A DNA stretch of 64,000 nt from Isoetes taiwanensis (lineage: Eukaryota > Streptophyta > Lycopodiopsida > Isoetales > Isoetaceae). A program made the position numbers and the translations under genes. Below the pieces are notes generated by a model, which did no database searches, was not told the origin of the DNA, and worked only from the letters and a program-made list of their open reading frames with translations. Positions within the stretch are counted from its first letter, which is position 1, and every line of letters starts with the position of its first letter. This document shows positions 3,590-59,626 of this stretch, one piece after another. The stretch is taken from contig JAJEKV010000051.1 in the NCBI GenBank assembly GCA_021234155.1, positions 951,692 to 1,015,691 on the forward strand, read 5' to 3'.

Positions 3590-4265
3590 TTCCTTGACTT
3601 TTAAATCAAGGGAAGAGATTAGAAGCCCCAATTCCAATGATCTGGATTAAAAGCCCCAATTCTATCACCTTCCTTGCAACTTCCTATCCAAAATTGACGG
3701 CGAAGATTTGACCTTCCCTTTTAATCCGACGGCCCATATGAAAAGCCCCAAATAATTTTAATCGACGGTCTAGATAAAATGCCCCAATTTCAAGGGCCCA
3801 GATTAAAAGCCCCAAATAAGGGGGGATGCTTGGGGTGTTACGAGGTGGCACCGTCTGGGCCGTCCATCTCAGAGATGGACGGCCGAGATCAATCTCTACA
3901 CCATGTTGGTAGACCTCCAAATAATTGTATATATATATAAGGATATACAATTATATTATGGGTCCTATGGGGGGTTGAAAGTTTGTAGAGATTCATCCTG
4001 GCCGTCGATTTTCTGAGGTGTCGCGATAATGGCTCTTGGATTTGATGGGGGGGCATGCATGGAGCATGCATGGGGCATGCACCCCATCCCTGGGCCGTCG
4101 ATCGGGCACGTGAGAAATCGTGGCCCTTGATTTCTTTGGGGGATGGATGGCCCGGATCAAAAGCCCCTTTATTTGGGGCTTTTGTTTTCGACCGTCAGAT
4201 TAAAGGGGCAGGTGATATCTTAGTCGTCAAAATATTGCTGAAGGGTGATTTAATGGTGGCATGTG
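3590..4265 (+). mobile_element. palindromic MITE-like element, copy 1
   Basis: Starts with repeats of AAAAGCCCCAATT and carries at 3858-3884 a perfect palindrome (arm GGCCGTCCATCTC around a central A), then GAGATCAATCTCTAC, an AT-rich palindrome around 3930-3955, a GCATGCATGG/GGCATGCACC block at about 4050-4085 and the hairpin CCCCTTTATTTGGGG near 4166. The same ordered modules recur at 22.9, 41.6, 50.6 and 62.4 kb (palindrome type) and at 12.0 and 21.8 kb (GCATGC type). No transposase is encoded, so it looks like a non-autonomous element. Target duplications were not located. Confidence 0.6.
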
Positions 4266-5740
4266 CAATTATGGAGCATTTATTTTTATGATGATGTGGG
4301 AAAGAAAATGGAGAATTTATTGCACAAATTTATTATTATCTATGGTTTTCTATTCTAATAGTGACATGTGCGGATTCTATTCTAATGGTTTTCGAGCAAA
4401 GCGATTTCTGTTCTCACGCCGGAGCAGAGCTCGAAACTTGGATTTCTTCGTGCCTGTGTTATGGCGGCAATGTGGAGCGGCATTCGAGTTTCGCTTTGTT
4501 GCTGATGGCTCCTCATTTCTAGCGATGTGGCAGTCTAGAAATATTGACGCAAAAATGGTTGAATTTGGGCGCCTATCTTGCCGTCTTCTTCACAGTTCAT
4601 CCGTGGTCTGCAAAAAATCCTAGAAGAAACGATTTTGTTAGAACCTTGCTCCTGTTTCGATCCATTCTGTGCAGCTATAGAAGAGCTAGAGCGTCACGAC
4701 AGTGAAGAAGACCACGGATTTTGCTTCCTTAGAAATGTCGGTTTGCAGGTTATTCTTGGAGTTGGAAGCGAGATAGAAAGCAAGCTCTAAAGCCCTTGAA
4801 AGAATCAGGTAATACAGTCATCAGGTCCTTAGGATTTTCTCAATCAAAAGGACCGTGCACTGCTCCACATTTCGAGTTAAGAGGGGAATCCTTCGTTCTG
4901 GGATGAGCATAATGTTCAGGTTGGTTTAGCATTGCTTTCTTAGTTACCCTTTGGTTTGCGGCGAACAATTTTGTTCTGAGGCCAGTACCCAGTCTAGAAT
5001 TATTCCTGCATTTGCTCCTATTTATGTACTAAATCTTTGTTCAATCGCTCTGTTCTTATTGTGCGTTTTGTTTCTGCAGCTGGAAAGGAAATGTTGATCA
5101 AGACTCTTGCTCCGGCAGTCGGTTCTTTATGGTAATTTTCGTCTGCTCCAAATATGACCGGATTTGGAGCTCTGCTCTATAACAGTAGGGCTGTGTAAAA
5201 GTCTTCCTTTAATTCTATTCTGTTTATTTGCTTGCATTGGCGGCCTGATGGTAAGCAGCTATGGCAGAGTTATGGAAGGAATTTTTTCTTTTTTCGTTTT
5301 CTTTATGAGTCTGAGAGCATTCCGGGCATTGCCAAACCCTGCTGATAAATCTCATGTCCAAACATTACATCTCGAAGTAGCCAGGAGTTCTCCGGTGACA
5401 ATGTACGAATTTGATTCTTATACGGCTATTCTGCATTTCTGGATTAATGTTTCTATTTGATTTTCTAGGCTGAAGCAACATCTCGTTTCTAAAAGCAGAT
5501 GGATTTTGTCATTTTGAGCATCGATCTACTAGACAGAATACAAAGGATGCGGCTGTGCAATTCATGTCTTTATTTTTGAAGGAAGAGAAATTAGGATGTA
5601 AGATACTGCACAAATTTGCATGTTTTATCTCAGTTCTTCCCTATCATTTTTTTTTACCATTGTTGTACTAAGGTAATAATACTGCATCTCAGGGCTCAAA
5701 CTGGTGAATGGCCACAAAGAATATCTTCCCGCAAAGAATA
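4266..5740. other. no confident gene
   Basis: Open frames at 4261-4623 and 5164-5460 are of ordinary length for AT-rich DNA and match nothing I know. Several TTTCTGCAG and GTAATT-like splice sites are present, so short exons of the decayed kinase locus downstream cannot be excluded. Confidence 0.3.
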
Positions 5741-13429: not shown

Positions 13430-14640
13430 TATGACAATGCTGACTTGCACAGGTTCGAAGAGTGACATACCCAAGACCGTTGATAATTAAAATGTATGGC
13501 AATTGTATAGCCTTGCATACAGAAAATCCAGGAGATGCTTTATAAAAATGTGATTTGTTGTTGCAAAAAGGCTCCACTTTGTTGGTCATTTTGCATTTCA
13601 GAATAAAATCTTTGGATTGGAGAACCTGTACTCAATAAAAACAAATTGTAACCTCGCCAATTTTTTATTGGCCAACCTGAACTCATTTACAAATTAAAAC
13701 CTTAGCATTTTTATTGGCCAGCATGAACCCAATTAGGACAAATTACAAATTTGTGAATCTAATTAAGACGTTTGTACAATGTCTTAAGCACACCTGCACG
13801 AAGTTAGAATAAACTATTCATATTTATGAACATAATGCAATGATTCCCTTCAAGTTAGTATATCCCACGAAACTGACGTTTACTTTCAACCCTAAAACTC
13901 ACACCAAGCAAATATGCATGACTCCAACATCCTATCTCTTTGTGTACCAATGCCTTAAGCACATTTGCACGAAATCAAGACAAATTATTCATATCTATAC
14001 CTATCTATGAACACATTGCAATGATTCCCTTGCCACAGCAAATACCCATAGTAACAAAATGACAAGTCCATGATTCACACATATCAATCCACTCAGCTTC
14101 AATGTTTTGACAGTAAACTAACACTTTCAAGCAAATTTCAATTTCTAGCACTTCATTTCTCTCCATAACATTTAAATACCTTCTATTATGCCTTTATTAT
14201 CCATTTCAAATTCTCAATCAAACACCTATGTGTACACCCCTCAATGAATCTCTACCATTATTCAATCCTCACTACTAAGTTCACATTACTAAGTTGAAAT
14301 TGATCATCCTTCAATATTACTCATACTTAATCACAATACTTAATACGTAAAGTTTCACACATGAACCACTAGCACAAAGCAACCACAAACACAACTTAGC
14401 ATTTCTATCTAATTAACCCCCAGTTGCACCCTCATTAATAAAAAGTAATGAGGTTTTCGGAATGGACTTTCTAGGAAGCTTCCTTTCATTTAATCGCCTT
14501 CAAACGCACGTAGCTTGCAGTAGAGGGATCGGATGAAGGTGGGACCCACGCCATTGGACTCCTCTCGTTGAGAGCTTTCCAACGAGTGGTGGTTTGGCAC
14601 AGTTCCGTTGTAGTTGGAGTCAATGTGATCGAACTCTAAG
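13430..14640. other. non-coding AT-rich stretch
   Basis: No exon with paired splice sites was found. CCTTAAGCACA-CTGCACGAA phrases recur twice (about 13782 and 13952), a hint of an old local duplication. Confidence 0.35.
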
Positions 14641-14644
14641 GGAA

Positions 14645-14800
14645 TTCATGGGAATCTCGGGGAATCTAAAGGAATCTTCATAAGTAGTTGGAGAATCTAG
14701 AGGATCCTGATGCAATCTTAGAGAATCTAGGGGAATCTTCATAGAATCTTAGAGAATCTAAAGGACTCTCAAGAGAATCTTATGGGAATCCATCTCGACG
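14645..14800 (-). repeat. phased AGATTC array, reverse orientation
   Basis: GAATCT-type units (for example AGAGAATCTAGGGGAATCTT) repeat about every 10-11 bp. It is the reverse complement of the arrays at 17.3, 22.0 and 41.9 kb. Confidence 0.7.
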
Positions 14801-16622: not shown

Positions 16623-17296
16623 TCAGAAGAACTAAGCATTCCGGTAGAGTTTCCCTTCTGGGTGCATGAAACTAAGCGACCAATATACATGTTATCAATC
16701 TTTCTGCATTTCCGCATTTATCAACCTTTCCGCATCGGTGTTCGGGGGCCTTTAACACTCCCGTTTCCGCATCTCCATTATCACTGTCTAACTCTTGGGC
16801 ATCCTGAAAAGCTTATACTAAGAATAACGTTAACGTCTTCCGAGTACTTGAATCGTGGGGAATCAATGAACCTGCCTGTTTACCTGCTAGCTTCCATCAA
16901 CTGCTTGCATTTGAACACAGTCAAGCTTTCACTTTACTCAAAGACCACAGGTTTCTATCATATAATCTGTTGGGATTTATAGTCTCATAAATGTTGTTTT
17001 AGAACAGGTCCATCATATCATTCGTTGGGATATAGTTTCTCAAGCATTGTTTTGGATTCGTTTTACATGTTTACTGTTCTCTATTTTGTAATGAGAATGG
17101 TAGCAATGATTTAAGTTCTCCTATTATGGACAGAATGCATTTCAGCAAGCATAAGCTGCCCAAAGTGATATTTTTGAGCACTTCATTGGATGGAATAGGT
17201 ATATGCATGAGAATAGTCCAGAATAGTCTTTGTACTATGTAGGGCCTGTACAAATCCAGCTAGAAGCCAAATACACAGATATATCTCTTAGACTAC
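16623..17296. other. intron-like or intergenic, no feature
   Basis: Contains a short local repetition (TTGGGATTTATAGTCTCA at about 16971 and TTGGGATATAGTTTCTCA at about 17025). The plus-strand ORF at 16662-16982 has no recognisable content. Confidence 0.35.
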
Positions 17297-18064
17297 TAGA
17301 TTCTCAAAGATTCTCTTGAGATTTCCATAAATTCCTTAAGTTTCTCTTCAGATTTTTCCATTATTGCTTAAGATCTTGAGATCCAAGGATTTCTTTAGAT
17401 TCTTCAAGTTTCTATGTAGATCCTCCAATATTCTTCAAGATTCCATCAAGATTCCCTTAGATTCTCAAAGATTCTCTTCTGATTCCTATAGATTCTCCCA
17501 GAGTCTCTTGAGATTCTTCTAGAATCTTAAAGATTTTTTGGAGATAAAAGATTACAATTTAATTAAAAAAATAATGGTTAGGATTTTTCCTTCCCTTTTG
17601 GTCTATCGACTAAAGATTCTCCAAGATTCTATGTAAATTCTCCTAGATTCTCTAAGATCCTAAGATTCCTCTAGTTTCTTTAAGATTCCATCAAGATTCC
17701 CCTATATTGCCAAAGATCTTATGGAGGTTTCCATAGATTCTCTAATATTCTCTTGAGATTTCCCTAAATTCCCAAAGATTATCCATCCTCTAGATTCTCC
17801 AAGTTTCTTTGCAGACCTTAGGAATGAAAATTAGACAGGAAAAGAAGGTTGTCGTTTAGAGGATAAGATGGTTGCGCTTCTGCAAGGTTCTCCTCAATTC
17901 TATTAGTTTCTATAAACATTCATCAAGATGCCATCAAGATTTCCTTAAATTCTCCAAGATTCTATGAAAATAACCCCTAGATTCCCAAAGATTCTCTGAA
18001 TATTTCCATAGATTCCCCAAGATCCTCTGAAGATTCTCTAAGATCCTCTGAAGATTCTCTAAGA
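17297..18064 (+). repeat. phased AGATTC array
   Basis: Dozens of AGATTC-type hexamers recur at about 10-11 bp spacing (for example TAGATTCTCAAAGATTCTCT). If the flanking minus-strand exons belong to one gene, this array sits in one of its introns. Confidence 0.85.
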
Positions 18065-19665
18065 AAATTGACTAGTTGGTCAAATGTTGGGTTAAACTCA
18101 TGGCCAAACTCTTGGTCAATGACCCTAGTCAACTTGGATCAAACTCCCCAGTCAATCTCACTGAGGTTTATGATAGACTAGTTTTGATAAGACGAAATAT
18201 TGTTTATCATATCTAATATTTAGTAGGGACAACGGTCTCACTTAGCGCAAGTCATACTCAATCGGCTTCGAACACAAACCTTTGTGTTATGCAACGTTGC
18301 AAATAGAGTCCAATCACATTATCAATATGCCAGTCATCTTTTTTTATGAATGGGACATGTGTAAAATCATACTTGTTAAACTATTGAACTAAAATCTAAT
18401 GCATCCTGCAAAATCTGAACATATGATAGACTTTGTAAAGCGCACATATTCTATGGAGATTTGTTCATATATAAAGAAGACATCGAAATGTTAATTATGC
18501 TTAAAAAATATTTCAAGAAAATCATTGCTTAGCTTTGGTGGCATTTTCTCGTTGCAAATGTAAAACATTCGTTTAAACTTCCTAGAGGCTTGTTTGGATT
18601 TTTGAAATTCCACCAATATCTATAAAATGTAGTATCAAACAAAAAAAAAAAAAGATTGGATGTGCGCTTTTTGTCATCTTAGGACTGCCAATATATAAAT
18701 ATCAATAAGAACAATGTGTGGTAGTTTGTTTTGCGCCGCTTGGGCGCCGCCTTGAGAAATTCCCTCGAGGTGCACTTTCCCTAGTACTTTATTCACTTTC
18801 CATCGGAAGTATTTGAAACTTAAAGGCATCAAGACCTGGCAATTGCATCGACAAATCAAGTCGTTTCAGAAGAAATCAAATACAAATCAAATAGAAACAT
18901 ACTGCCCCAATAGCTCTAAAACTAATGAGGCTAGCTCTAATAGTTAGCCACAAATCCTTCAAACCACATGTTATATCAAATCCACCCATAATTTGGGAAA
19001 GCAATGTCTTCAGTAATAGAGACAAATACGCAATTGCATGGATTATTGGAGAATACAGGATGTCAGGTTGCGAAAAGATTTCTCCATCTTGGTACTTATT
19101 TGCATTAAACCACCTGCATGCAAGTTGTTTCAATTCTAATTGTGTACAAATATGATGGCCCAGGCACTAGGCCCATGTGATCTAAGCCTTAGGTAACTGC
19201 ATTCTCTGTGATGACCTGTTTGTAGATGTACATTGCTTCCAAAAACATTCAATGCACATGTTGCAGTATCATGCTGTGGGATTATAGATGTAATGTGCAC
19301 GGGTGTTTTCAATCTAAATGATTCTTTTCTGCAATCTATTGGTGGAACGGTATCTAATAAATGTAATGTGTGTTTTCCTTTTTACTGAAGCTTCAAGATC
19401 TGCTGGTTTCTTCGTCTTTTCATTTTTTAACAACGAAATAAGCAAAAACCTCATTCTTTTAACACAACTCATTGTACAGCTTTTGTACCTTCGACATCTC
19501 CATCCTCCAGAAGGGGATTATAGCCATCACAAGTTTGAGTTATGGATGTCGAAGCAAACTTTTCATAAAATCAGCCGAAGTTACCTGCACACATATAGCC
19601 AAGATGCCCTCAAATGGTTGATGGCACAGCTTGAAAATATCAAAATTCAACATCCTCTTTCTTAC
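18065..19665. other. mostly non-coding; one exon-like minus-strand frame
   Basis: A minus-strand frame open over 18876-19133 follows a TTGCATGCAG acceptor and reads WFNANKYQDGEIFSQPDILY. It may be another exon of the same gene but lacks an obvious donor. An A-tract at 18641-18653 has no detectable target duplication. Confidence 0.3.
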
Positions 19666-22010: not shown

Positions 22011-22032
22011 ACAAGGTATATGATGGGGTTCT

Positions 22033-22870
22033 CTTGAGATTCTTCAGATTCCCTAAGGTTCTGTTGAGATTCCTCTAGATTCCTAAAGATCCCATGAAGA
22101 TTCCCCTAGATTCCCTTAAATTACCATAGATTTCGTAAAGATTCCCCTAGCATCTTAAAGATTCCTTTAGATCATATAAAGATTCCTTTAGATTCCATCA
22201 AGATTCCCCTAGATTCTTCTAGATTCTCCTAGATTCCCAAAGATTCTCTGTAGATTCTCTAAAGTTCTATCAATAGTCCCTAGATTCTCAAATATTCTAT
22301 GAAGATTCCCCAAATTCCCATAAATTCTCTCGAGATTTCCAAAGATGCCCCAAGATTCCCCATGATTCTATGTAGATTCTCTTGGATTCCCTTAGGTTCT
22401 CTAAGATTCCATGAAGATTCTTTTAGATTCTCTCAAGATTCACATAGTTTTCTCAAGATTCTATGTATATTTCCTAGATTCTCTAAGATTCTATCAAGAT
22501 TCCCCTAAACTATCAAGTATTTCTATAAAGATTCCCTAGGTTCCCATAAATTCTCTCGAGATTCCCCTACATTCCTAAAGATGTCTCAAGATTCACGCAA
22601 ATTCGCATGGTTCTATGTAGATTATCTTGGATTCCCATAGATTCTCCATAATTCCATCAAGATTCCCCTACATTCCGAATTATTCTCTCAAGATTCATAT
22701 AGATTCCCCAAGATTCTATTTAGGTTCTCTAAGATGCTATGAAGATTCTGTTAGATTCCCATAGAGCCCTAAGGTTTTCTTGAGATTCCCTAAATTCCCA
22801 AAGACTATATCAAGATTCCTCTGCATTCCCCAAGATTCTATGTAGATTCTCTTAGCTTTCCTGAGATATT
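22033..22870 (+). repeat. phased AGATTC array, about 0.84 kb
   Basis: Very regular AGATTCYCYTA / AGATTCTATGA units of 10 or 11 bp (for example AGATTCCTCT, AGATTCCTAA, AGATCCCATGA, AGATTCCCCT in direct succession). It runs straight into the palindromic element beginning at about 22870. Confidence 0.9.
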
Positions 22871-23240
22871 ATGAGGATATCCTTATATATATACAATTAT
22901 ATTGAGTGCCACAAATGTTGGCAGTGCCACAAATGGTGTAGAGATTGATGCCACAAAATGTTGGTAGAGATTGATCTCGGCCGTCCATCTTTTGAGATGG
23001 ACGGTCCAGACGGTGCCACCTCGTAACTCCCCAAGCATCCCTCTTGTTGGTGTACCAAAATATTGGTACAGATTGATCTCGGCCGTCCATCTCTTAGATG
23101 AACGGCCCACAACAAAAGCCCCAAATAAGCCCCTTGATGCAGAGTGTGTGTAGACATTTAAATCTCGGCCGTCCATCATCAAACTGGGCGGCCCACGTTA
23201 AGCCCCCAAATTGACCCCTTTATTTGGGGCTTCGATCTGT
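22870..23240 (-). mobile_element. palindromic MITE-like element, copy 2
   Basis: Reverse-complement copy of the element at 41.6 kb: ATACAATTATATTG, GTGCCACAAATG, GGTAGAGATTGATCTCGGCC, two GGCCGTCCATCT palindromes (near 22979-23007 and 23080-23106), GGTGCCACCTCGTAACTCCC, then AAAAGCCCC and CCCCTTTATTTGGGG. Peptides such as GRDQSVP in overlapping frames recur in other copies only because the DNA does. Confidence 0.75.
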
Positions 23241-24579: not shown

Positions 24580-26730
24580 GGATTCTCAACCATGGTTCAT
24601 ATTCATGGAGGGACGTAGTTTTGAACTTCCAAGTATGGAATTCATTGTGATCTTGCAACTTCAAAAGGATATAAGTTTTGTACTTACGTAATCTTGGTGG
24701 ATACTTTAGGTAAGATAAGGTAATCTTTGTTTTAGAACAGGATTGGTTTAAAATATGTTCTTTCAGTGGTATCACAAGATCGATTGCAAGATTTTCTAGA
24801 ATTGTCGTGGTGCCATTTCATCTTATTGAGACAATCTGTCAAGTCAACAACTCTCGTTGCTATTTTCTACATTTTAACCAATGTGTGATCGCTTTTCTAA
24901 AGATTGCAGCCTCGTTGTACCGCCCATGCCTTTGAACAAACCCTTAATGGTTGTTTTAAATTTCGTCGTTTTTATAGTCGGCATCCTCGGATATAGTTAG
25001 TAACTTCTCGATGGTTTGTTGATGTAAAGCTCAATGTCCCGCGAGGAGGTTGCTAGTCTTTGTTAAAATTATGAATAAGCGTGCAAGGCGTGCCCTCCGG
25101 ATAACCAACATCTCTTGCAACTTTTGAGAGCTCGAGAATTCCATGTGTTGCTTTGTATTTTTCAGGCAAGTAGGTATAGAGTAAAATCAACGTAAGCTCA
25201 GGTCTATCAAAACAAATTGTGAAGAGAAATGACGATTTAAATGAGGGAGATAATTTACAGGTGTAAGACCATTATCTTTTCGTGTTAAATAGAACTTCGG
25301 ATTCCTTTGCTTATGGAGGGCTAATACAATTTTGTCAACTTTTTCTTCTCTCACAGTTTCTTGCAGATCCAAATATTGAAATGCAGCCCTGGATAATGGC
25401 TGAGAAAGGCTTTGTGGAGGTATGAGCTTCATCAATATCCAAAACATTTCATATTGTCTTTTCCCAAGAGGATTTGAACGACCCTATGAAGACAAAACTT
25501 GAGTTAAGGGAGCAGGAAATACTCGAGCTGAGATATGGTGGGAAGTAGGTGTTCTACTTTAGCAATTGTCATGGTCAATGTTTAAATTTGGTTTGCAACC
25601 ATTTTGAGAAGAAACATTTTAATAATCCAGATGTTGCAGCACAAAAATTGAGAATCCGAGGCATGTTAATGAAATTGAGGAAATCTGTTTGGCTACATCC
25701 TCGTTGGGTGGAATTGTTCCTTCTGGAACAGGGTTAGCTTGGAATAATTTATGGGCTGGATGTATCAAATGTCATTGGTGAAGGGTCCGTCTCTATGTTG
25801 CAGAATTTTGTCTGGTGTTGAAGCGCATTCGATGTTTAGCACCAGATTAGGTAAATTTTGCTAAGACAGCGAAGCTGAGCATACAGATTAAATGTAATTT
25901 TTGTTCCTTGAAACCGTTGGGATTGAGCCCTAGCCCCTTGCCAATTCTGTTAAAATCCCTGCCCGTTTGCCAGTTCTGCTAAAATGCCTGAGTAAATAAG
26001 CATATAGCAAGAATTAGACAGAGAAACTCGATAACTCCCTGGGCCTCTTGAAGAAATCGACCGCCTGGTTCTTTTGTGACTTGAAGCTCTGTCCAGTCTA
26101 TGTCTTTTTCAAACCGAACCTAATAATCCGATTGAAACAAGTTATTGAAATGCCATGGATCGGGTTCCCAAAATCTCAGATAACTCCCATAAACAAGCTC
26201 CATTTTCGGTGTGAGAACATGCGTTGGAAAGGTTGGAGAAAGATCTACAAATGGTCTTAGGTGTATATTTTTCAGATTGATAGCAGAAATGGTGCAAAAC
26301 AGAGAAAACGTTTATGCTATATCCAGATAGTTCTTGCAGCAAAACTTTGATAGCTGATTGGCATTACTTCTCTCTAATGATCTCCCTATGCTGCATTTGA
26401 GCGATTATTTTTCCCCGATATGGTGCAAAAGGGTGATCCGGCTTTCAGCTCCAAGTGCAGATTCTAAAGGGCTAGGTTTAGATGTGGGTTTAGAAATTCC
26501 TGTCAGCAAATGGGTTTTGTTGTTGCTGTTCCGGCAGGATTGTACGGATAATTGTACCATTGGTTTTTCAAAGCATACTACTGCATATGAAAAGTGACAG
26601 CATAGGTGATTTCAATGAGGAGAGCGGCAATGTATTTAGCAACAAGTGGAGAAAATTCATGTTTTGCATATGTTTTACCAACTATAAAATCGTTTTGTAT
26701 GTTATCCTTCCTATATGCATGATTACTAGC
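24580..26730. other. no confident gene
   Basis: Short exon-like pieces with TTGCAG acceptors occur (for example DPNIEMQPWIMAEKGFVE near 25365-25420, and an open frame at 25549-25737), but none is recognised or paired with a neighbour. Confidence 0.3.
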
Positions 26731-26732
26731 AC

Positions 26733-27031
26733 AAGAACTTTATGCAACAAACATTAGACATGCGCTCTTGTGATCTTGCATGCGCTCTTGTTGGCTGGTA
26801 GACCTGCAAGGTCTTTTGCATTACCTGATGACGAGAAACCAGCCATTCAGCAGCTTTGCTTGCTTACAATGGTTTTGATATCCTTACCTCATAAGAACTT
26901 TATGCAACAAACATTCGACATGCGCTCTTGTGATCTTGCATGCGCTTTTGTTGGCTGGTAGACCTGCAAGGTCAGTTGCATTACCTGATGATGAGAAACC
27001 AGCCATTCAGCAGCTTTGCTTGCTTACAATG
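26733..27031. repeat. 160-bp direct duplication over coding remnant
   Basis: AAGAACTTTATGCAACAAAC through GCTTGCTTACAATG is present at 26733-26871 and again at 26893-27031 with only a few differences. A 21-bp stretch (GTTTTGATATCC...) separates the copies. Confidence 0.9.
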
Positions 27032-41934: not shown

Positions 41935-42835
41935 AAAATCTATTAAAGATTCTCTTGATATTCCCTTAAATTTCTAAAACTTATCTCAAGATTCCTCTAG
42001 ATTGCCCAAGATGCTAGGTAGATTCTCCTAGATTCCATTAGATTCTATGAAGATTCCTCTGCAAGCACACCTAGTGTCAAATATTCTCTTAGATCCTCTT
42101 GGATTTTCTCCTAGATTTCCTAAGATTGCACAAAGATTCCCCTAGATTCTTAAGATTCTATAAAGATTCCCCTAAATTTTTCGAGAATTATCCCAACATG
42201 CCTCTAGATTCCCCAAGATTCTATGTAAATTCATTCAAAATTTCAAGGATTCATTCAAATTTTGTAAAGATTCCCCTATATTCTCAAAGATTTTATGAAG
42301 ATTCCTTTGAATTCTCCGAAATTCTCAAAGATTTTCATGAGATTCCCATAGATTCCCCTAGCTTTCAAAAGGTTGTTTCAAGATTCACCTAGATTCCCCA
42401 TGATTCTATGTAGATATCGATTTCCTTAGATTCTATGAAGATTCCTTTAGGTTCTCCAAAATTTCATCAAGATTCCCCTCGATTATTAAAGATTTTATGA
42501 AGATTCCTTTAGATCCTATGAAGTCCCTTTAGGATCTTCAAGATTTCATCAAGATTCTCCTAGATTCCCAAAGATTCTCTAAAGATTCACATAAATTCCC
42601 CAAGATTATATGTAGATTCTCATAGACTCTCTAAGATCCTAAGAAGATTTCCATAGATGCTCAAATATTCAATGAAGATTCCCTTCGATTCCCTTAGATC
42701 CTTTTGAGATTCCCCTAGATTCCTAAAGATTGCCCCAAGATTCACCTAGATTCTCCACGATTCTATGTAGATTATCTTGGATACCCTTAGATTCTATGAA
42801 GATTCCTCTAGGTTCACAAAGATATAAATTGCCTA
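41935..42835 (+). repeat. phased AGATTC array, about 0.9 kb
   Basis: Same 10-11 bp AGATTC repeat as 22.0-22.9 kb (for example AGATTCTATGAAGATTCCTC). The frame open over 42099-42392 (SPRFYEDSFEF-like repeats) is a translation of the array, not a gene. Confidence 0.9.
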
Positions 42836-48300: not shown

Positions 48301-50640
48301 GAGCATTCTCGGAGCTCAACCAGTTAAAATGCATACAGGCATCCATTACCTTGCAATGGTTATTTGCAAAAGAGCATCATTCTCAACTCTCTTCTAAGCA
48401 TTTGCCCTTTGTTTCCTTCTAAGTCCAGATTGTACTTTGAGTAAGCTATTATTTCTTGATTAGCGCTGCTGCCCGAAGAAGGCAAGGATTGGGTCATTCT
48501 CCGTTCACTTAGGGAAGAGAACAAAATAAATCATCAACTTATTAAATTTGGCATTAAATTATCTTTACAATAAGACATATACCAAAATTTGCATGACACA
48601 TATATTATCTCAGCTGCACATCTTGCACCTCTATAGAGGCACAACAAAGCGTATAATTAGTTGCATTTCTCCGACACATCCTTTATTTTAGAAGTGAACT
48701 AGAGAATAGTAAAAAGCAATCCAACCATAAGTAGCTTTTCATGTTCACATTGCGAAGCAGTGGAAAGCAATCAACAGAGAATGTGTGGCTACTGCGAGAA
48801 AGCAACGGAACTTTGATAATACTGGAATGCATCCTAGCAAACGCATGCATATATCATAGAGGCAAGACATACACAAATTGTGGTGATACCTTGTGGGAGA
48901 CATAGCAAGTCTCCAAGTGGGAGAGCGTAGCAAGTCTTAAAATCGTATGACCAATAAAAATTAAATATGAAGGCGTATGCAAGTAAATTTGGAAGGCATA
49001 TTAATAGCATGCTTTCGATTTACGTAACACCACATCCACCACTACATGAGCTCGCGAAAGCCAAAACAAAGAGAACTGAAACAGCACAAACTTTTACTCG
49101 GCATCAAGTTGGCGACAATTGTTATTCTACCCATCAAACTCCTCTGCGGGCGCTCCTATATTATCTAGATTTGCCATTGAAAATTCTTTGTTTGGAAATT
49201 GTCTCGTAAATTGGCTATCAGCGGATATAATAAGGCAAAATAGGCGTACCTGAAGAAACACGCAAGCGGCAAACTAAATGAGTTAAAGCACAATCCATAT
49301 TTGAAATCCATATTCCAGCGGCTGTTGAAATCACGGAGTAAATTACAGAGTCTCGCTTTTCTTGGGGCCAAGAGATAGGTGATTAAAAGCAGAACCTAAA
49401 CATCAATAGAAGCGCAGCGGAAGTGATATTCGATATTTTAAAAGCCACAAACCCGAGGTTAAGTAAGTCGATAAGCGTATCAATTTCTGAAATATGGCAA
49501 ATGTTTCGCCACTTGATACATCCATGTTTGAAGGCTTGAACAACAATCTCCGATTACTGCGGTTGAAAGAACCGTTTAAATAGTCAAAATCAGAGCAAGA
49601 AGGTGATGATATTAACCTTAAAGCTTTGGTTGAAGTCGCACTTCTAGCTCGAAACGACCTACACGCAGTAAATCTTCAAGTTTTGAAACTCTTTTGCCAG
49701 AGCTGGCCGGGTTAAATAGAGTTGATAGCGACATCGGCTGAAATGCCGGGCGGTTTGCATACCCATCCTTGCAAAAAAGAAGCGGCGTTTACATGTGTGA
49801 GGGCATAATATTGAGAAATTGGAAAAGCATTTGATGGTTCCTCAAAAATCTAGGAAACAATGCATCTTTTGGACAATGCATTATAAAAACCTTACCTCGG
49901 TAGATCCACGGAGAGCGTTCTCGGCACAATGCTTTGTAAGAGTTAAGCGGGAATTCTCTCCTAACTCATTTTGATCTGACGTATGCTTTTCAACTTCTAT
50001 TGGCAACGTAGACCAGCGAGAAAAGACAAATCTGAGAATTTTATAGCGGAGATAAAGCGGCTGGCATGCACATTCATTCGAACAGCGGATCTAGTCTACC
50101 GTAGGCTTCGGAGATAAACCTTGTCTGGCAGGCGGTGGATATCTTCATTTCTGAGCAAGACATGAAAGGAAAAAGGAAAGCGGCTCACGTATTTTTTAGT
50201 AAATATAAGCGGACGGGAGATCAATTAGAAACAAAGGAATGGAGGCAAAGGATCGCATTTTGCCCAGCAGCGGAAGAGGAAAGCCTTGTCCTTACGGTTA
50301 AATGCGTCTGTATTTTTGGTGCCGCGCCATACAGTGCTTGCTTAACATTAGTTTGATATTCTTAAGGAATACCATCGCCCAAACCATATTTGGAATTTCT
50401 AGAACCGACTCGTAAAGGAAAATCCGGCTATTAGGAACAACGATGGCGGCCACGGCCTTAATGATCCGGGTGCATTTACACCTTTGTGACATGCCGATTC
50501 ATAACCAAACTTCGTTTCTATCTCCGGATATACCCGGCTGAGATGAATCGGTATGCAAAGAGCGAATGCCTGCGGAGTAGAAGCCGGATCTGGAGGCCGA
50601 AGCGGGGGATAATTTAGGTTTCAAGCGTCTCGAAAATCCA
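45350..50640. other. no confident gene; CpG-richer toward its end
   Basis: Small overlapping frames on both strands, none recognised (the 46654-46974 frame is the longest, 106 codons). From about 47.8 kb GCGG and CG words become noticeably more frequent than in 5-40 kb. Confidence 0.3.
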
Positions 50641-50644
50641 CAGG

Positions 50645-50945
50645 ACCAATTGATGGAGAAATGGAATTGGGGCTTTGTTAATGGAGCGTTCATCGAGGAG
50701 ATGGGCCAGTAGAGATATCTGTACCAATATTTTTGGTACACCAGCAGAGGGGCGTGCTTGGGGAGTTCTGGTGGCACCGTGCGAAGATCCATCTCAAAGA
50801 TGGTGGCCAGAGATCAATCTCTACCAAGATTTTGTGGCATAATCTCTACACCATTTGAGACTCCTACATGTTTGTGGCACCCAATATAATTGTATATATA
50901 TAGTGATATAATTATTAGGAGTGGCTTCCTAGAACCTTCTTTTAT
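50645..50945 (+). mobile_element. palindromic MITE-like element, copy 4 (decayed)
   Basis: Same order as copy 3 (TTGGGGCTTTG, ATCTGTACCAATATTTTTGG, GCTTGGGGAGTT, GAGATCAATCTCTACCAAGA, TTTGTGGCACCCAATATAAT), but both GGCCGTCCATCT palindromes are mutated, so it is an older or damaged copy. Confidence 0.7.
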
Positions 50946-50949
50946 ATCT

Positions 50950-53630
50950 ATACGCCAAATCTTGTGGCCGTCGATTTGCTCCTCGCCAGTCGGTAGTCGG
51001 ATCGAGGTAGCTTCGAGGATTTGGCGAGGAGATATGGTATTGGCCTTCCATCTTGGAAATTCTAGAAGATGACAAAATTCTAGAACATTCTTCAATCTTC
51101 TGACGCTCATTATATATATAATAATCTTGACGGGCCTGCCAGAGTTACCATCGCCTCTATTTTTACGTTTTTCTATATGGATTTATTGGCGGGCCTCTTT
51201 GGATGACATCGCCTCGGTTATATAATGCTATATATATGGCTTCTCCTATCTGGCTCGGCCTCTGGGGATCGTCCTTCCTCTTGCTTTAGATTCGGCATGG
51301 AATTTTGGAGCTTTGGGCTGGTTTGGCTAAAATCTTGGCTATTGATTATTGTTGAAATTTGAGATAGATGTGGCATTTTGGATGCTTATTATCAAGACGG
51401 TCGAGTTTGACATTCTTGAGGACAAAATAGAGATCTTGACGTGCCTCTTCGCACTTTGGGGTTACGAAATTCAACTTTACCTCATTAAGCCCCAAAATCT
51501 TGTGGGCACAGTGCATTGGCTCTGGTCGTGTTGCCTCGGAGGCTAACTGCGAGGTTAGGAGCTTGAGATTTAGGCGTTTAGTGATGATAATCTAGTAAGT
51601 TATTCTTGGTGGCTGAAATTATTTTTTTATTTGTATGCATTTTTAGGCTTCGGGGACATGCAACCCCGATGTCAAGGGTGTCGATTAATACTGCGTGAGC
51701 TCACAGCCAGCATACCGCCACGCTCTATGGGATTCTTTGATGTATTTCCATATATAGCCTACATGGGCCTTTGTGATTGAAGGCCTCAAAGCGAGGGAAC
51801 TGGTTGATTGCCATAAGCGGAGCCTTAGGTCCTTGAGCCCCAAGCGGGGCCACATCCATTGTTTTGAGATTTCCGGTGATAGAATTCTACTTGGGCTTAC
51901 AGGTACGCCCAGTTTTAAGATCTGGAACTCAAGAATGGCCCGGGTATTCTTCCTTCTTTGGTTTTGTAGTCTTAATCTTTGTTTGAAATATTTTTTTTTA
52001 ATGAGGAGAGGAAGCAGTTGGGTCAATCCTAAAATTAAATACCAACAAAGGAAGGAGCTTCTTAGCCAAATTTAAATGATAAGCCCATAACAAGCTCTAC
52101 CTCCTTTAGTTTGAATGGATTGTGGTTGGTTTTACATTTATTCTGAGGGAATGATATTGTTTTTTGAAATACGAGATAGAGTTTGGGAATTCTATGGCAT
52201 ATTGTGAGAAAAGGATAAAGGGAAAGGTTGCCACTGGAAACCTTAAAATTTTGCGTATTTGGAAGGGTTATACTAGAGCCAAACATGGATAAGGCGGTCT
52301 ACAAGTTTAAGTTTACTAAAGCTTTTAAATTAAGCATTATATTGCCGTCTTTTGCTACAAATGCCAACAAATTCAGACCTTCTATAGGTTAGAAGCGGGG
52401 AAGGGTATGTCGGTTAGAGGCTTATCTTACATTAGATTTATCGCGCTGGTTGTATGTACCCGGGTGAAAGCATATTTGTAGTGGAACAAAAGCGTGCATT
52501 TAGCACCACATTTTTGGGTGCTAAGTGTGTAGTGGAACTACCGAATTTGTAATTAGGGCGGTTATTTTTTCAAATATACACATGATTACTTATTCAAAAT
52601 TTTGGCCATACCGGTCTTGTCCGGTCTTATTGACCCAATGTACGCGTCGACACCAAGCTTCGATCATGCTCCTTAATCGGCAAGATTCATTTGATTACGA
52701 GATTTTTCATTTTTCCTCACCATTTACGATTTAAGCAGAAGATCGATCCGCGAAATAGCTCGATCATACCAGACTTGAATGCCATGGGATACACCTACGG
52801 AAAAATGTCTGAGCAAAGAAAAGCATTCGCCACACAAAAGAAATGAGTGTTTGGGGGCCAGAAAGTATTAGAAAAATCCACTTACAGGTAGGTTGCATTC
52901 TAGATTAAGGGGATGCCCTTGATTCTCTGTTATTTTAGAATATTGTTTTTGTTTCATCATGCGAGGTTGAAGAATCTGAGCAAGGAAATTATAATGAATA
53001 TATATGTGCCTTAAAAAATCCACAGGCGAGGAGGTAATGCACGGGAGGCATAGCCTCCACAGGACTATAGGCCTTCGCGTATTACCTTCACACAAAAGGA
53101 AAAGAAATAAAGCGGGTTGAGTTTTGGCAAAATAGTGAGGGAAGCGAGGCAACACACCCACAGGATAATCACTTCACTCTGTGAAATGACTAGGCCACAA
53201 TTCAAGCCTCCTCAAGTACGTAAGAAGAATCTAAAGGGAAAATCAACTGAAAAATGGAAGTGCGCACTCAGCCCTCTTATTACCGGAACCACCATGATGC
53301 AATTTAATATTGGAACTATTATTTTCCGACAAGGTCTAGCAAGCTTGAACATTAGAATTTTTGCCCGCTTCTTCATTTGGGTGTGTTTATGAGAGATTAT
53401 GTAGCAGGAAATTTGAAATGTACACTTCTAGTTTGAGTTGTAGTGGATAATTTTGAGTTCCGCGGTAGTAGCTCCAAATGTGTTCTGGAGACGGTCATAT
53501 GGTGCCAATTATATGTTAATAATGTAGTTTGTAGCATATGTAGTGTCACATATAGTACGAACATGGTACACCTTATCTGAATAGTGAATTGGCTTTATAT
53601 GTTTCTATACTTAGTGTCATATGCTTGATG
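50950..53630. other. no confident gene
   Basis: Frames at 51773-52075 and 52868-53161 lack motifs and splice partners. Short (AT)n tracts near 51.1 and 51.2 kb. Confidence 0.3.
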
Positions 53631-53639
53631 TTGGGTATA

Positions 53640-54070
53640 GTGATACTTGTAGATGATGGATTGTGGTGCCAAATTTCTTTGCTTTGAAATATTGCACCAG
53701 CTATACGCGCCTACACATATGGGGTGGTGGATGCACAGGATGTGGTGCCTTCTTTGCATTAATGGTGCCACATGTGGTGTCTAATGTATGGCACCACTAT
53801 GGATCCACATTTGCACCACATGTGAATTGTCTTTGGCGCCATTTGTGGTCGCGAGAAGTATGGATTGCCATATGGTGGCCTTGGGTGCATTGTGGTGCCA
53901 TAGGTGAATTGTGTCATGAGGCACCGGTTGGTGCACATGCCACACCACATGTGGTGAATATGGCATACACCACAGTGCCACATGCCACACCACATGTGGT
54001 GAATGTGGCGCCATTTGTAGTTGCAAGAGTTTGTCATGATGGAATTTGTGGTGTATAAAGTGGTGCACAT
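53640..54070. repeat. palindromic GTGGTG/CACCAC satellite
   Basis: Irregular repetition of TGGTGCCA, CACATGTGGTG and GGCACC. The 14-bp perfect palindrome CACCACATGTGGTG occurs at 53943-53956 and 53988-54001. Because the repeat is self-complementary, long frames open on both strands (for example 53663-54058 and 53759-54079); these are compositional artefacts. Confidence 0.75.
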
Positions 54071-54079
54071 TTGTGTCAT

Positions 54080-54925
54080 GTGGTACTAACCTTGGATTAC
54101 TTTCAGGTTAGATTCAACGAGGACCTTTGCAGAATGGATCAACTCTACAAGATCAGAAGTGATTGATTAGTAGGTAGGAGTTGCAAACTTGTGATCAAAG
54201 CTGCGGGTGCTACAAATGAAGGTTGACAACGGGTTCATAGGAAGATGAATAAAGATTTAAAAAATGGGAAGGAATGATTAAGGATAAAACCAAATTACGA
54301 TGCGAGGCCGGTGTGGGCTATATGCCAAGATCTGGTGAGGCTGTACGGAGCAGCGGATAAAATCGAGGAGCTTAATCACAACACTGTATGGGGCTGACTG
54401 CTTGACATTAGAGAAGTCTTTGGAACCAATTAGAGGTTTTGTGCACGGGACGTCTTCCTTTATTTATGCGGATACCTGCTTCGGACCGCCAGTAAAGGCT
54501 GAAGGTTATGGTAGTGGTTTGTCCATTACGTGGCAGATCCTCCGGTGGATGGAAACCACCACCAACTTTGATTCTTTGAATCGATCCTGTACCATCTTCC
54601 ATGCGCTCGGCCTCTTGAGAGGTACTTCATAACAAAATTCTGAAGTGCCCAGGTATAGTGTATTCTCATTGACAAATTTGCGTTCACTTTACTTGAGTTG
54701 TAATCATTGTTGCATTGGGGGTACATCGCCGTTTTCTCTCTGACTGGGTACAAGCCTTAGGTGTGAGTAGGGATCCAAAGCAACTTCAAGCCTCTTGAGG
54801 GGCGCTACGGTGAGCACTTATAGGTAGCAGTTTACATGCCCAGGCTGATGTAAGGAGACGGATGCGAGTGGGATTAGTGGACTTCCTAATCTTTTCACCA
54901 CGGCAGTGCTACGTTTGTCTTTTAT
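54080..54925. other. no confident gene
   Basis: Frames on both strands at 54.4-54.6 kb overlap without any recognised motif. Confidence 0.3.
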
Positions 54926-54928
54926 TTT

Positions 54929-55280
54929 GATGTGTCAATTTGCCCCTAGGATGAGATTGGCTCTCACTCATTTTGGGTGGCGAATTAGATACATCAGCGA
55001 GAAGCTTCGAAAAAAGAGAGTAAGTCAGCTTGAATCTCCTTCGTTTTTACGTTTTATTGTATCTAATTTGCCCCCTAGGATGACATGGCTCACTTTCGGT
55101 GGCGAATTTAGATACATCAACTGACTTCGAAAAGGGAGTAAGCGGTACAAAACAAGATCACAGCTGGCTTAGTCTCTTTTTGTTTCTCTTTTTGTTTTGT
55201 GTATCTAAAGTGCCCCTTTGGGATGAGATAAACTCTGCGGCTCATTTTTAGGGGACACTTTAGATATATAAAAACGAGGA
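54929..55280. repeat. three tandem hairpins with covarying arms
   Basis: Hairpin 1 (54929-54995) pairs GATGTGTCAATTTGCC with GGCGAATTAGATACATC; hairpin 2 (55059-55115) pairs GTATCTAATTTGCC with GGCGAATTTAGATAC; hairpin 3 (55201-55267) pairs GTATCTAAAGTGCCCC with GGGGACACTTTAGATA. The loops share TAGGATGAGAT-type sequence. Each hairpin is followed by a CTTCGAAAA-GAGAGTAA-like block. Units are about 130-145 bp apart. Confidence 0.8.
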
Positions 55281-55329
55281 ACATCGTAAAGAGAGTAAAA
55301 AGTAGGAGCTTAATTTAAAAAAACCAAAA

Positions 55330-56800
55330 CATGCTACAATCAATTGGCAGGTTAATTTCCAGGTTTTACTTGAGCATGGTGCGTTTACTAATTAGTCCTG
55401 GCTGTATTCATCTTTGGTATATCCATCAGCACGCAAAGGGGTATTTTCTACCCTCAAAGGTAACCAAGTATTGTTTGATGCAATTGGGATATGTAGCTTA
55501 CTTCTTCATCCCTACTTTGTAGATATAGAGGTACAACAATTGATTAGGGGACAAGACACTCACACACCCCTTAAAGCATTAGACCACAGAGATGAAACTT
55601 CGGGCAAATGGAAGATATCGAGGATTCTGAGAGTCGGACAAATCCCGATAGATATCAACAAATCGTTAAGATTGCATCAAGTCAAGCTCGGTAGGTGCTC
55701 AAGCTGGACAACAATCTGCCGGATCGGCCGGATGCATTAAGTCATGCTCCCACACCAATCTGCCAAATGTCCAATGGTCATCAGTTATAATCTGAACAAA
55801 TCGTTTACGTTGAATGTAAGTCACAAGGTAACTTCAATCTTTGTGCACATCTTCTTTTAATTTGACCCATATAGTTGCAGAATACATTAAATTTTTGCAT
55901 TTGGAAGTGTCACCGGAGAAAAAGCAAGAGCGAATTCCAAGAAGCAAAAGGCACCAAGACATTAGGCGGTTCCGTACACACCGAAGAGATGCTGGAAAGC
56001 GAAGTTCCAGCCACTAAGAAATGCGGCGGTTCCGATACGCACCAACTCACATTCCATCACGGAGACTACGGGTTAAGCCCAATCACCTTGTTTTTTACAC
56101 TACAATGCAGGTTACGGGTAGAAGCTATGACAGAGTGGTCGCGCCAAAGAGATGATGTTAAGTTGATCACGCCGCGGAACCAAGTGGGTAATGTAACTAG
56201 ACCAATTTGGGCGAGTTCATAGATTGATGCGGTCGGAATTTCATACTTAGCACTTTGGTCCGACCTCTGGGGCTCAAAACTTGAGAGTCATAGTTAAAGG
56301 GAGCATTGATGAAACACAAGGACAAATTCAAGTTCATGTATAGGTCGGGGATGATTGTACTGGCAAGCCCCTTTTTACTGCCAGCACAATTTATTTAGGT
56401 AGATGTAATTTTTTTGAAGCACACGAAAAGGTCTCTGGCTTAATTTCGAGGTTTCACAAAGAAGAGCGTGTTCTGGTGGTGGCAGAATACGGGTACCTCA
56501 ATCGCCCAAACACCGCGTCTGTCCCAAGCGGTTTGGAGCCGGCGATGATGGCAATTTCCTCATGAATGATCTAAGGTTTGGCCGAGGGGGTTCTTGAAAG
56601 CGGGGAATGTACAAAGTTATGTAGAAGCCAACAAAATCTGAATATGTTTGTGATGAGAGTCAAATTTGTGTATTAATATGATGAAAAACATAGAACTAAA
56701 GCTTAGAAATAGTATTGTGTGTATATGATGTAACCTCTCTTGACTTTAATATAAACAAGTTTTACTTCAAATTGTTCATTTCTTGGCTATTTCAATGTTC
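55330..56800. other. unrecognised ORFs, low support
   Basis: The frame at 55875-56222 (115 codons) has an internal echo (LGGSVHTEEM and CGGSDTHQL) and a basic start (KCHRRKSKSEFQEAKGTK), but no known domain. Another at 55414-55740 overlaps nothing recognisable. Confidence 0.25.
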
Positions 56801-56814
56801 CTCAAAGGTTTTCA

Positions 56815-57023
56815 ATGATCTTCCATTTCTTGGAGAATGTGGCTGCTACACCACCAGCCACCGCGAGGACTACTTACGGTATTAAGGCGCACATCCGACC
56901 AGAACACTTGCCACTTGAAGTGTTTAAAGGTTGTGAGGAGCCTCTTGTGCTTGATCAAGAGACAATCGAGGAATATTTGAAAGGCGGTTGGTTCAATAGC
57001 GGGATAGTCAATTTCTTCATGAG
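56815..57023 (+). CDS. exon with possible Ulp1/SENP-like start
   Basis: The open frame ends at a GAG/GTTAGT donor and reads HLPLEVFKGCEEPLVL, DQETIEEYLKGGWFNSGIVN and FFMRL. The pattern GWFNSGIVNFFMRL resembles the WLNDxIINFYLxxL entry motif of C48 (Ulp1/SENP) cysteine proteases, which in plants are frequently carried by Mutator- and CACTA-type transposons. The catalytic His, Asp and Cys would lie downstream and were not found. Family assignment is tentative; the segment otherwise has good protein-like composition. Confidence 0.35.
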
Positions 57024-57039
57024 GTTAGTAATTTAATAT

Positions 57040-57900
57040 AAACTAACAGTTTGGAAGTCTTACATTGTTTCTTAAATCACATCTTGATGTTTTACGGACC
57101 TTGGACTTTGGCGGTGTATGCACCAATTACGCATCAAGCATGACATGGAGCAGGTTCCATTTCATGGATCGGCTCATTTTACATTCTTGTGACGAGCTTG
57201 CTAAGGACTGGCTATTGAACCCTCAACTTGCAATTTGAGATGTACCGATGCTGCCCGGTATTATCGGCAGCGGGCCGATTGTGTAATGTCATTGTAGGTC
57301 TTGGAGGTCAGCCCGGTTAAAATGTCGTGTGTACCATTTTGTGACCTAGAAATGTACAAGGGCTCGAACTGTCATGAGTTTTGTTGAGGATGCAAACACA
57401 AAATTCCCAGTACCGCGGTAGCACAAAGAAATTACAAGTTCCCCCACTTTCGGTCGATTGCTGGTCATTGTGGTCACTGCTATATGTAATGTCTTTGTAA
57501 AAGTTGTAGCTCTGATGTCACGAGACTTGGACATACTATATCCCAATGCAAGGTGAGTTAAGTAGAATTTGAAATTACTCATCGATGTGAGGCCTGATAT
57601 GTTTGTTCTGCGGGGTGTACCAATTTCTAGTTGGTACATTTGGACCGCATGAGAATGATGATTGATGTTGTAAACCTGATGATTCTTTGTAGTAATGTGG
57701 AAATTTGAGGTTGGCGGATCAATAGATCTTTACTTATGTAATCACATGTTTTGTATTATTGTAACCAAAGGAGTTATTTCTTTCATTATTACTCTAATGG
57801 CATTTGTTGTATACTATTGTACAATAGACTTTTACGGTGACGAGCAACACTGCGGTGGGTTCAAATCTCGGAAGAAATTGGTGTATTCAAAGATTCATGA
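57040..57900. other. no confident gene
   Basis: Contains GGGTTCAAATCTCGG near 57856, similar to a tRNA B box, but no matching A box at the right distance was recognised. Confidence 0.3.
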
Positions 57901-57904
57901 CAAT

Positions 57905-58620
57905 GTGGTGTTACATATGCGTGATAGATGTAGTGATGCAAATGGTGCATGTGGTAAATCATGTGGTGCATTTGGTGAACCATGTGGTGAATCATGTGGT
58001 GAATCATAGGTAGCATCTTTGGAGCTTACATTGGCATGTTGGAGCCTAGGTAGCATGTTTAGGCACGCGGCATGTTGAGCCTAGGTGGAATGGCCCAGGC
58101 CACGCTGGCATGCTTGAAACCTTTACATGACCTTTGTTACATGTTTGACTGTTGTTAACATGTTTGGTGACGATGCAAATGGTGCATGTGTGGTGAATGT
58201 GTAGTGCATTTGGTGAATCATGTGGTGAATCATAGGTGGCATGTTGGAGCTTACGTGGCATGTGTGGAGCCTAGGTGGCATGTTTGAGCCACCTTGGCAT
58301 GTTAGACCTAGGTGGCATATTTGAGCCACCTTGGCATGTGAGCCTTACATGACCTTTGTTGCATATATTTGACTTTCATTGACCAACGCTTGTTTGGTGA
58401 TCTGCAAATGGTGCATGTGAATTGGATCATGTGGTGCATTTGGTGAATCGTGGTGAATCATGTGGTGAATCATAGGTGGCATCATTTGGGCTTGTTTAGC
58501 AGGTGGAGCCTAGGTGGCATGTTTGACCACCTTGGCATGTGGAACCTAGGTGGCATGTTGAGCCACCTTGGCGTAACAGGCAACCTTTGCATGTTTCATT
58601 TAGGCAACATGTTTGGTGAA
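57905..58620. repeat. mixed minisatellite: GTGGTGAATCAT and AGCCTAGGTGGCATGTT units
   Basis: Runs of GTGGTGAATCATGTGGTG alternate with units such as GAGCCTAGGTGGCATGTTTG and AGCCACCTTGGCATGT of about 35-40 bp. The larger block GATGCAAATGGTGCATGTG...CATAGGTGGCAT occurs three times (about 57936, 58171 and 58400). The first words overlap those of the 53.7 kb satellite. Confidence 0.8.
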
Positions 58621-58867
58621 AGCGTAAGTCAACAATTAGAAATTGGCAATCAATTTACACTAGCTAATTATAGCTAAATTACTAAACAAATTGCCAAATA
58701 ACATAATATGATTGAATTGTCAAAATGAATGGCGATTCCGGAGATACGATATATATATATGTATAGAAATTTGTCGATCCTAAGGTTGTATTTAGGTTTA
58801 GCATGTTCTATAACTTGATTCTAGTATTTTCATTCCTAAAAGAATGTCTTGAGAATGCTCAAAATTC

Positions 58868-59165
58868 CACTTAGATTCTCTAAGATTCTACCAAAATTTC
58901 TCTTGGAGGTTTAGTGGAGATTCCTCTAAATTTTACTAAGTTCCCTCTAGATTCCATTAGATTTCAAGTAGATTCTCCAGATTCTATAGCTGATCTTATG
59001 GTTCATGGTCCCTTTAGATTTTATACCACCAGAAGTTACCTTAGGTTTCCATACATTTATATGCCAGTTGAAGTCTATAAAATTCCCATAGGGTATACAG
59101 TTTCATCAGCATTTTCCTAGGCGCCTTAGATTTTATGAAGATTTGTGATCCCTAGATTTTAAGAG
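58868..59165 (+). repeat. AGATTC array, short
   Basis: TAGATTCTCTAAGATTCTAC and related units, less regular than the 22 and 42 kb arrays. It introduces a TTCTAGAACTTT-rich stretch (59.26-59.50 kb) that recurs near 60.77 kb and, inverted, near 61.73 kb. Confidence 0.65.
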
Positions 59166-59626
59166 ATTCCCTTAGGCTTGTAAATATTTTCTACAGTTAT
59201 ACCATTTTGCTAGAGATTTTCTTAGATTGATTTAGTTCCTGCGGATTCCTTTACATTCTAGAACTTTTTTAGAGGCGTTAAAGGCTTTACGGGACATTCT
59301 AAGACTTTCTAGGGGCATTAGGACAAAATATCTAGAACTTTACGGAAGTATTTCCCTAGATTCTCTTACTTCCCATGGATTCCTACATTCTAGACATTTA
59401 CAGAACCTAATAGAACAATTTGGGAAACTTCTGGAAGAATTTTTCATAGATTCCCCAGTTATGTTCTAAATTTTTGCAGAGATATTCCCCAAATCCTAGA
59501 AGATTCTGAACTTTTGACACTAGAGTTGTTTAGACTCTTTTTTGAGACTAGTTAGATCCATTTTATCTTAAGCCAGTTGTTTACCCTTAGAGTATATTTG
59601 AAACATAAATTATTCATAGAATTAGT

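Follow-up and report, generated by a model that had tools for sequence, protein, structure and literature searches.

A covarying hairpin array inside a DNA transposon of Isoetes taiwanensis, a candidate structured-RNA cassette

Introduction

Hairpin structures within maize transposons are tied to small RNAs in passages of a maize study (PMC10760457). The array described here likewise consists of local hairpins that resemble microRNA precursors within a transposon and that could act as a template for small RNAs. It differs from the maize hairpins of those passages (PMC10760457) in that one cassette is present in two repeat families, forms a tandem triplicate in one of them and has arms that covary beyond a tree-based null. 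The plant MIR genes derived from transposons, as treated in parts of another study (PMC3086885), are also plant hairpins of transposon origin; in contrast, the Isoetes cassette has hundreds of copies, many of which are still within elements, and is known here from sequence alone. A third system, the Sola superfamily, is described in passages of PMC10741241 as having 4-bp target duplications, terminal inverted repeats and sizes that may exceed 15 kb, features that recur in the host transposon described below (family A), and as reported from a moss. Unlike family A, the Sola elements of these passages (PMC10741241) appear without mention of internal RNA hairpins.

The DNA analysed here, termed the window, is a stretch of 64,000 nucleotides of the I. 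taiwanensis genome (C1058:951692-1015691). Long hairpins would normally be a liability to a transposon, and a stem of the length found in this array is a natural substrate for Dicer-like proteins. To our knowledge, a structured RNA of its own is not something that a DNA transposon is expected to require. The silencing pathways of lycophytes differ from those of angiosperms. Among lycophytes, I. sinensis has a 24-nt small-RNA peak and two Selaginella species are without it, according to the portion of PMC5569507 that treats them.

Results

The array is composed of near-perfect palindromic units

Three tandem hairpins are located at positions 54929-55280 of the window, where an earlier sequence-only reading had placed them. 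Folded as + strand RNA pieces of ~100-120 nt, hairpins 1, 2 and 3 reach -39.9, -29.7 and -40.6 kcal/mol (z -5.1, -2.9 and -5.5), with 0, 1 and 1 of 200 dinucleotide shuffles folding as well. The whole array of 431 nt reaches -155.4 kcal/mol (z -11.4; 0 of 100 shuffles as good). Both the claim of three hairpins and the proposed check, the folding of each unit and of the whole array, are borne out by these values. In most rows of a 42-row alignment of copies, which contains the window and 41 blocks from L001-L038, the arm pair of hairpins 1 and 2 is TAATTTGCC with GGCGAATTA and the arm pair of hairpin 3 is TAAAGTGCC with GGGG(A/G)CACTTTA, so that the matching changes of the two arms first noticed in the window are found in most of these rows. 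Every distinct inner hairpin among the 42 rows keeps a hairpin fold; the weakest fold, -8.8 kcal/mol, belongs to hairpin 2 in an L034 block.

The unit is longer than the sequence-only reading had proposed. In cleaner copies (L039 and L019), each unit is a near-perfect palindrome of 116-127 nt with arms of ~57 nt and, in unit 1, a loop of ~8 nt. It starts with GGCTTAGTCTC, and units 1 and 2 finish with GAGTAAGCC or a near variant. The 3' block that had been described as shared between hairpins, CTTCGAAAA / GAGTAA, is present in sequence but is not a separate block: it forms the outer 3' arm of the longer unit, and its partner in clean copies is TTAGTCTC..TTTCG upstream. Mapped from L039 onto the + strand of the window, unit 1 spans about 54901-55026 (inner stem about 54927-54997), unit 2 about 55028-55142 (inner stem about 55058-55119) and unit 3, which carries the arm variant TAAAGTG/CACTTTA, about 55166-55303 (inner stem about 55196-55272). 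A 60-nt leader on the same strand (54841-54900, corresponding to L039:6536-6597) precedes unit 1 and is shared with a second repeat, family B, in the alignment of the two families.

The sense RNA of units 1, 2 and 3 in the clean copy L019 folds at -79.4, -57.7 and -59.3 kcal/mol (z -15.2, -9.4 and -9.1), and the antisense folds are weaker in all three units (-56.9, -45.4 and -53.1 kcal/mol). By fold computation, the units have a feature of plant microRNA precursors, a stable hairpin with a long paired stem; another mark of such precursors is a small-RNA duplex that is cut precisely and has 3' overhangs. No Rfam match was found in the window, and none reached the gathering cut-off; at E up to 1, L019, L089, L094 and L097 gave 19 matches, all below the cut-off, 18 of which were to miRNA families and one to an antisense RNA.

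Genomic copies and sequence quality

The genome searched comprises 1,658,258,908 bases in 1110 contigs. Searching it for copies, as had been proposed, revealed that the array is not the only one of its kind: a 17-nt core taken from the unit 3 arm is matched exactly 457 times, and the same pattern read backwards 0 times; the covariation analysis proposed alongside was run on 31 units. Positions 50617-59507 of the window were compared with a duplicate 74 kb away on the same contig (L005). The two differ at 23.4% of positions, inside as well as outside the repeat, with up to 45% differing at CG and 53% at CAG/CTG, and 14-17% at positions farther than 5 bases from them. Deamination could account for the commonest replacement, TGG to TAG (12), but not for other frequent ones such as CAG to CGG (8) and TCTG to TACG (6). 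The counts also show strand asymmetry, with 278 A to G and 169 T to C changes. The assembly was built from R9.4.1 nanopore reads with racon, pilon and LR_Gapcloser, as stated in a section of PMC8566536. The region looks like poorly polished nanopore sequence rather than the product of evolution, and many of the positions at which the window departs from its relatives appear to be uncorrected errors. Because of this, single-copy variants of the window are considered unreliable and the argument uses variants common to several copies; rare variants are blurred by the same errors. The low divergence of the window stems (16 differences seen against 32 expected, given the distance to CG, CAG and CTG sites) was set aside as strong evidence of constraint, since the errors cluster at these sites.

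This nanopore-like error pattern is what would be expected if assembly error or chance had made the array or its covariation. As a source of the array itself, such an artefact is refuted by the exact arm-core matches set against none backwards. The persistence of the fold in every distinct inner hairpin of the 42 rows and the recurrence of the arm variants on several contigs also argue against an artefact, which we regard as very improbable overall.

The array is carried by a DNA transposon

The array sits in a DNA transposon, family A, approximately 2.5 kb from the left end of the element. In the window, the left terminal inverted repeat is located at 52462-52488 on the + strand (GGGTGAAAGCATATTTGTAGTGGAACA) and has one substitution and one insertion compared with the 26-bp repeat of other copies, GGGTGAAAGCATGTTGTAGTGGAACA. 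No convincing right end of this copy was observed within the window. In the three copies read at both ends (15,679, 13,376 and 10,662 bp; contigs C959, C908 and C1054), the 26-bp inverted repeat is identical at both ends, and 4-bp target duplications (ATAT, ATGG and CTCT) are present in all three. The left end abuts different flanks in 18 of 18 junctions read, with a variant start in two of them, and an inverted copy of the left-end repeat is found at the far end of the element. This sharp left end and the inverted repeat exclude an LTR retrotransposon, a LINE or a SINE as the host. An apparent (TA)n 3' end of the element was dropped once longer copies had been read.

The 4-bp duplications would fit the Sola superfamily. 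Among 13 open reading frames tried from family A loci and their flanks, nine had no Pfam match and a tenth had only a sub-threshold one. Two family A frames without a match, L062:4478-5050 and L062:5103-5528, may resemble the DDD transposases of the Sola type. A NIF/FCP1-like phosphatase frame lies on the hairpin strand (L039:7583-8416, PF03031, E 3.7e-13); a search with this family gave 151 matches from the 150 of 3263 candidates scored, many in frames longer than 250 aa. The array block gave 43 matches from the best 40 of 953 candidates, and their surroundings are common over many kilobases. One long copy (C1055) is without ~2 kb that include the hairpins. In a comparison of 100 of the 457 arm matches with 60 of the 100 listed left-end matches (of 293), within 6 kb, an exact left end was found 2.2-3.1 kb upstream on the same strand for 34 of the first 100 arm matches, and 32 of the 60 left ends had an arm match downstream.

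Several other features were observed in and around the element. A Ty3-type gag fragment (window about 52180-52460) adjoins the element in L005 and L003 and is degenerate in the window; in L005 (1522-1878) it was considered as part of the element and proved to be flank. The copies in the window, L005 and L003, which have ~293 bp of flank in common, may descend from one insertion. Inside the element, window 57935-58572 holds a 226-bp tandem array with GTGGTGAATCATG-type subrepeats, the copy number of which varies between copies. In L004, a family A segment is repeated, and the junction fuses right-part sequence to an internal left-part site. The C959 copy contains a zf-RVT match (L062:2293-3204, E 4.1e-8), probably a nested LINE-like insert of ~1.3 kb. 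Elsewhere in the window, diffuse 10/21/31-bp AGATTC-type repeat arrays occur on both strands (14635-14790, 17293-18085, 22027-22898 and 41935-42823), and a 160-bp unit is present in two copies that are 96% alike (26730-27031).

The leader and hairpin recur in a second repeat

Six arm matches without a left end were fetched. Two belong to family A; the other four belong to another repeat, family B, and carry one or two units each. The 3' flank of family B has 816 candidates, 40 of them scored. Four family B loci match five family A loci only over the leader and the hairpin. Between L039:5901-7300 and L079:1201-2600, this is the sole aligned part, with 193 columns that are 88% identical. The stretch common to the two families is thus ~190 bp, composed of the 60-nt leader and the hairpin, and family A carries the cassette as a tandem triplicate.

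In the family B locus L078, a frame with coiled-coil/RING-like similarity (858-1544; best E 1.5e-4, below the Pfam cut-offs) shares the strand of the hairpin and stops ~340 bp short of it. The cassette therefore lies on the same strand as nearby frames in both families, NIF-like in family A and RING-like in family B. After the hairpin, L078 has a hAT-type transposase frame on the opposite strand (3633-4721, E 3.3e-7); this hAT stretch is present in one of two other long family B copies and absent from the other. Terminal repeats or ends of family B were looked for and not found. At least these two kinds of repeat, which are probably mobile DNA, carry the cassette.

These arrangements bear on an explanation at the DNA level, in which a palindrome, either a nested foldback or MITE-like insert or a duplex or cruciform binding site, became threefold in family A at a later stage. 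A MITE or foldback insert would itself be the mobile unit and have a target duplication of its own. Such an origin would fit the occurrence of ~124-bp palindromic units singly, doubly and triply, as well as two contigs in which the first and second blocks are 646 and 688 bp apart. Against it, the end of the transposon is ~2.5 kb away from the array, and the stretch common to families A and B takes in the leader, which lies outside the palindrome; the palindrome therefore probably did not move alone. A duplex also gives no reason for the weaker antisense folds or for the excess of G.U pairs on the sense strand that is described below. We consider a palindrome acting as DNA unlikely.

The arms covary beyond shuffled and tree-based nulls

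Covariation was measured in two sets of units. Among 45 family A blocks with at least 300 aligned bases, exactly three unit anchors were found in 23, and 22 were parsed, two of which (L009 and L039) are one locus. Set A2 contains 30 full units (29 distinct) from 10 of the 21 distinct parsed blocks. Set A3 contains 31 units, nine from family A (L011, L019, L021 and L028; three per unit position) and 22 from family B, where L081 and L095 among 24 loci yielded no unit and one of two L074 units was missed. In A2, pairing holds in 89.5% of cells, both sides have changed in 37 cells and the covariation score is 0.151; in A3, the corresponding values are 92.3%, 33 and 0.136. None of 500 shuffles reaches any of these values in either set. 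Slid partners score 0.018-0.074 (A2) and 0.022-0.059 (A3), a comparison that inherently favours the tested structures, which are folds of single rows (L019 unit 1 for A2 and L092 for A3). In a purpose-built tree null, columns were simulated independently on a FastTree phylogeny, itself derived from the same alignment, with the parsimony changes of each column; 0 of 1000 replicates reach the fraction paired, the doubly changed cells or the score of A3. Independent drift of the arms, the pattern that the sequence-only reading had set against its own claim, is not seen in these 31 units, the pairing and score of which exceed the shuffles, the slid partners and the tree null.

Doubly changed pairs are not unusually numerous: their number was matched by 53 of 500 shuffles (A2), 283 of 500 shuffles (A3) and 210 of 1000 tree-null replicates. 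Extra pair types are not exceptional either (39 of 500 shuffles in A2 and 158 of 500 in A3). In A3, 23 of the 33 doubly changed cells sit at three pairs, 33-101, 45-90 and 46-89, two of which are neighbours, so that few events carry the covariation signal. RNAalifold called only 13 pairs on the first alignment, which we attribute to misaligned unit ends and gaps. For the outer stem of unit 2, a supposed compensatory change was dropped (in A2, U.G at 10-123, 12-121 unpaired in 11 of 29 rows).

Near-perfect stems of this kind are also predicted by template switching or gene conversion between arms, in which slippage of the polymerase, or repair across the palindrome, replaces one arm by a copy of the other and no RNA function is involved. 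Both sides change on the same branch for six pairs, among them the neighbours 44-91, 45-90 and 46-89, as such copying would produce. Yet the arm variants form a stepwise series, TAATTTG/CGAATTA, TAAATTG/CAATTTA, TAAAGTG/CACTTTA and TATAGTG/CACTATA, and the intermediate TAAATTG/CAATTTA together with one U.G state at 46-89 suggests that the neighbours changed one step at a time. Arm copying would moreover leave Watson-Crick pairs and no strand bias, which leads to the comparison of the two strands.

G.U pairs exceed A.C mismatches on the sense strand

If nothing but the duplex DNA counted, transition mismatches of the G.U and A.C types would be equally frequent. Among A3 column pairs with a transition mismatch in at least 3 of the 31 units, 15 are G.U and 0 are A.C on the sense strand, compared with 20 G.U and 15 A.C among the rarer ones (Fisher p 0.0019). 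Altogether, 35 G.U stand against 15 A.C (p 0.0066). The threshold of 3 was picked after the table had been seen; at threshold 2, the shared mismatches are 19 G.U and 4 A.C and the contrast is not significant (p 0.12), and raising the threshold to 4 and to 5 gives p values of 0.021 and 0.043. In family B by itself, 13 G.U and 0 A.C are counted at threshold 3 (p 0.016), and thresholds 2, 4 and 5 yield p of 0.026, 0.079 and 0.16. No contrast is seen in family A by itself (66 units, with one locus counted twice), where 12 G.U and 6 A.C are shared and 31 G.U and 18 A.C are rare. By unit, the shared G.U to A.C counts in family A are 5:0 in unit 1, 5:2 in unit 2 and 8:4 in unit 3; the bias stands out in family B and, within family A, in unit 1 but not in the other two units.

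Fold energies were compared on the two strands as well. The sense strand folds better in all 22 parsed family B units and, among the distinct inner hairpins of family A, in all 36 hairpins 1 and all 30 hairpins 3; for hairpins 2, the antisense strand is slightly better in 9 of 38.

The predominance of G.U pairs over A.C mismatches in the sense strand speaks for a single strand that folds, and not so much for a duplex palindrome or pure arm copying. Of the two readings offered from the window, selection for an RNA or DNA structure gains from the covariation and the pooled bias, although the contrast is missing in family A alone. Gene conversion between arms loses ground to the same pooled bias, in which shared G.U pairs persist, and keeps the same-branch double changes on its side. 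Because the sense bias is weak in family A, we retain arm copying as a minority possibility of some weight.

Discussion

We favour a pairing selection that acts on the sense single strand, which would most simply be the transcript of the element. In the mechanism that we propose, the cassette would be transcribed along with the element, and base pairing in the sense RNA would have been selected while the two families spread. The double-stranded character of the folded transcript would then be recognised by host Dicer-like or other dsRNA-binding proteins, the most likely job of the structure, and this recognition may lead either to cutting into small RNAs or to protection of the RNA. Taken as a whole, the view of the array as a transposon-borne structured-RNA cassette with selected sense pairing, most likely serving a Dicer-like or dsRNA-protein role, has in our judgement an even chance of being correct.

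A bolder version is conceivable, in which the leader plus hairpin is a mobile RNA module that passes between unrelated plant DNA transposons and persists through selection on the sense RNA, as decoy dsRNA or a protected transcript, to evade or exploit host silencing; we hold it to be a long way from probable. Among the papers listed on Isoetes, hairpins and transposons, none was found to describe the cassette, which is no proof that it is unreported.

If the structured-RNA reading is true, a covarying cassette in two repeats would suggest that DNA transposons can be subject to selection at the RNA level. The hundreds of natural variants in this genome would then be available for studying the production of small RNAs or the protection of transcripts in a lycophyte.
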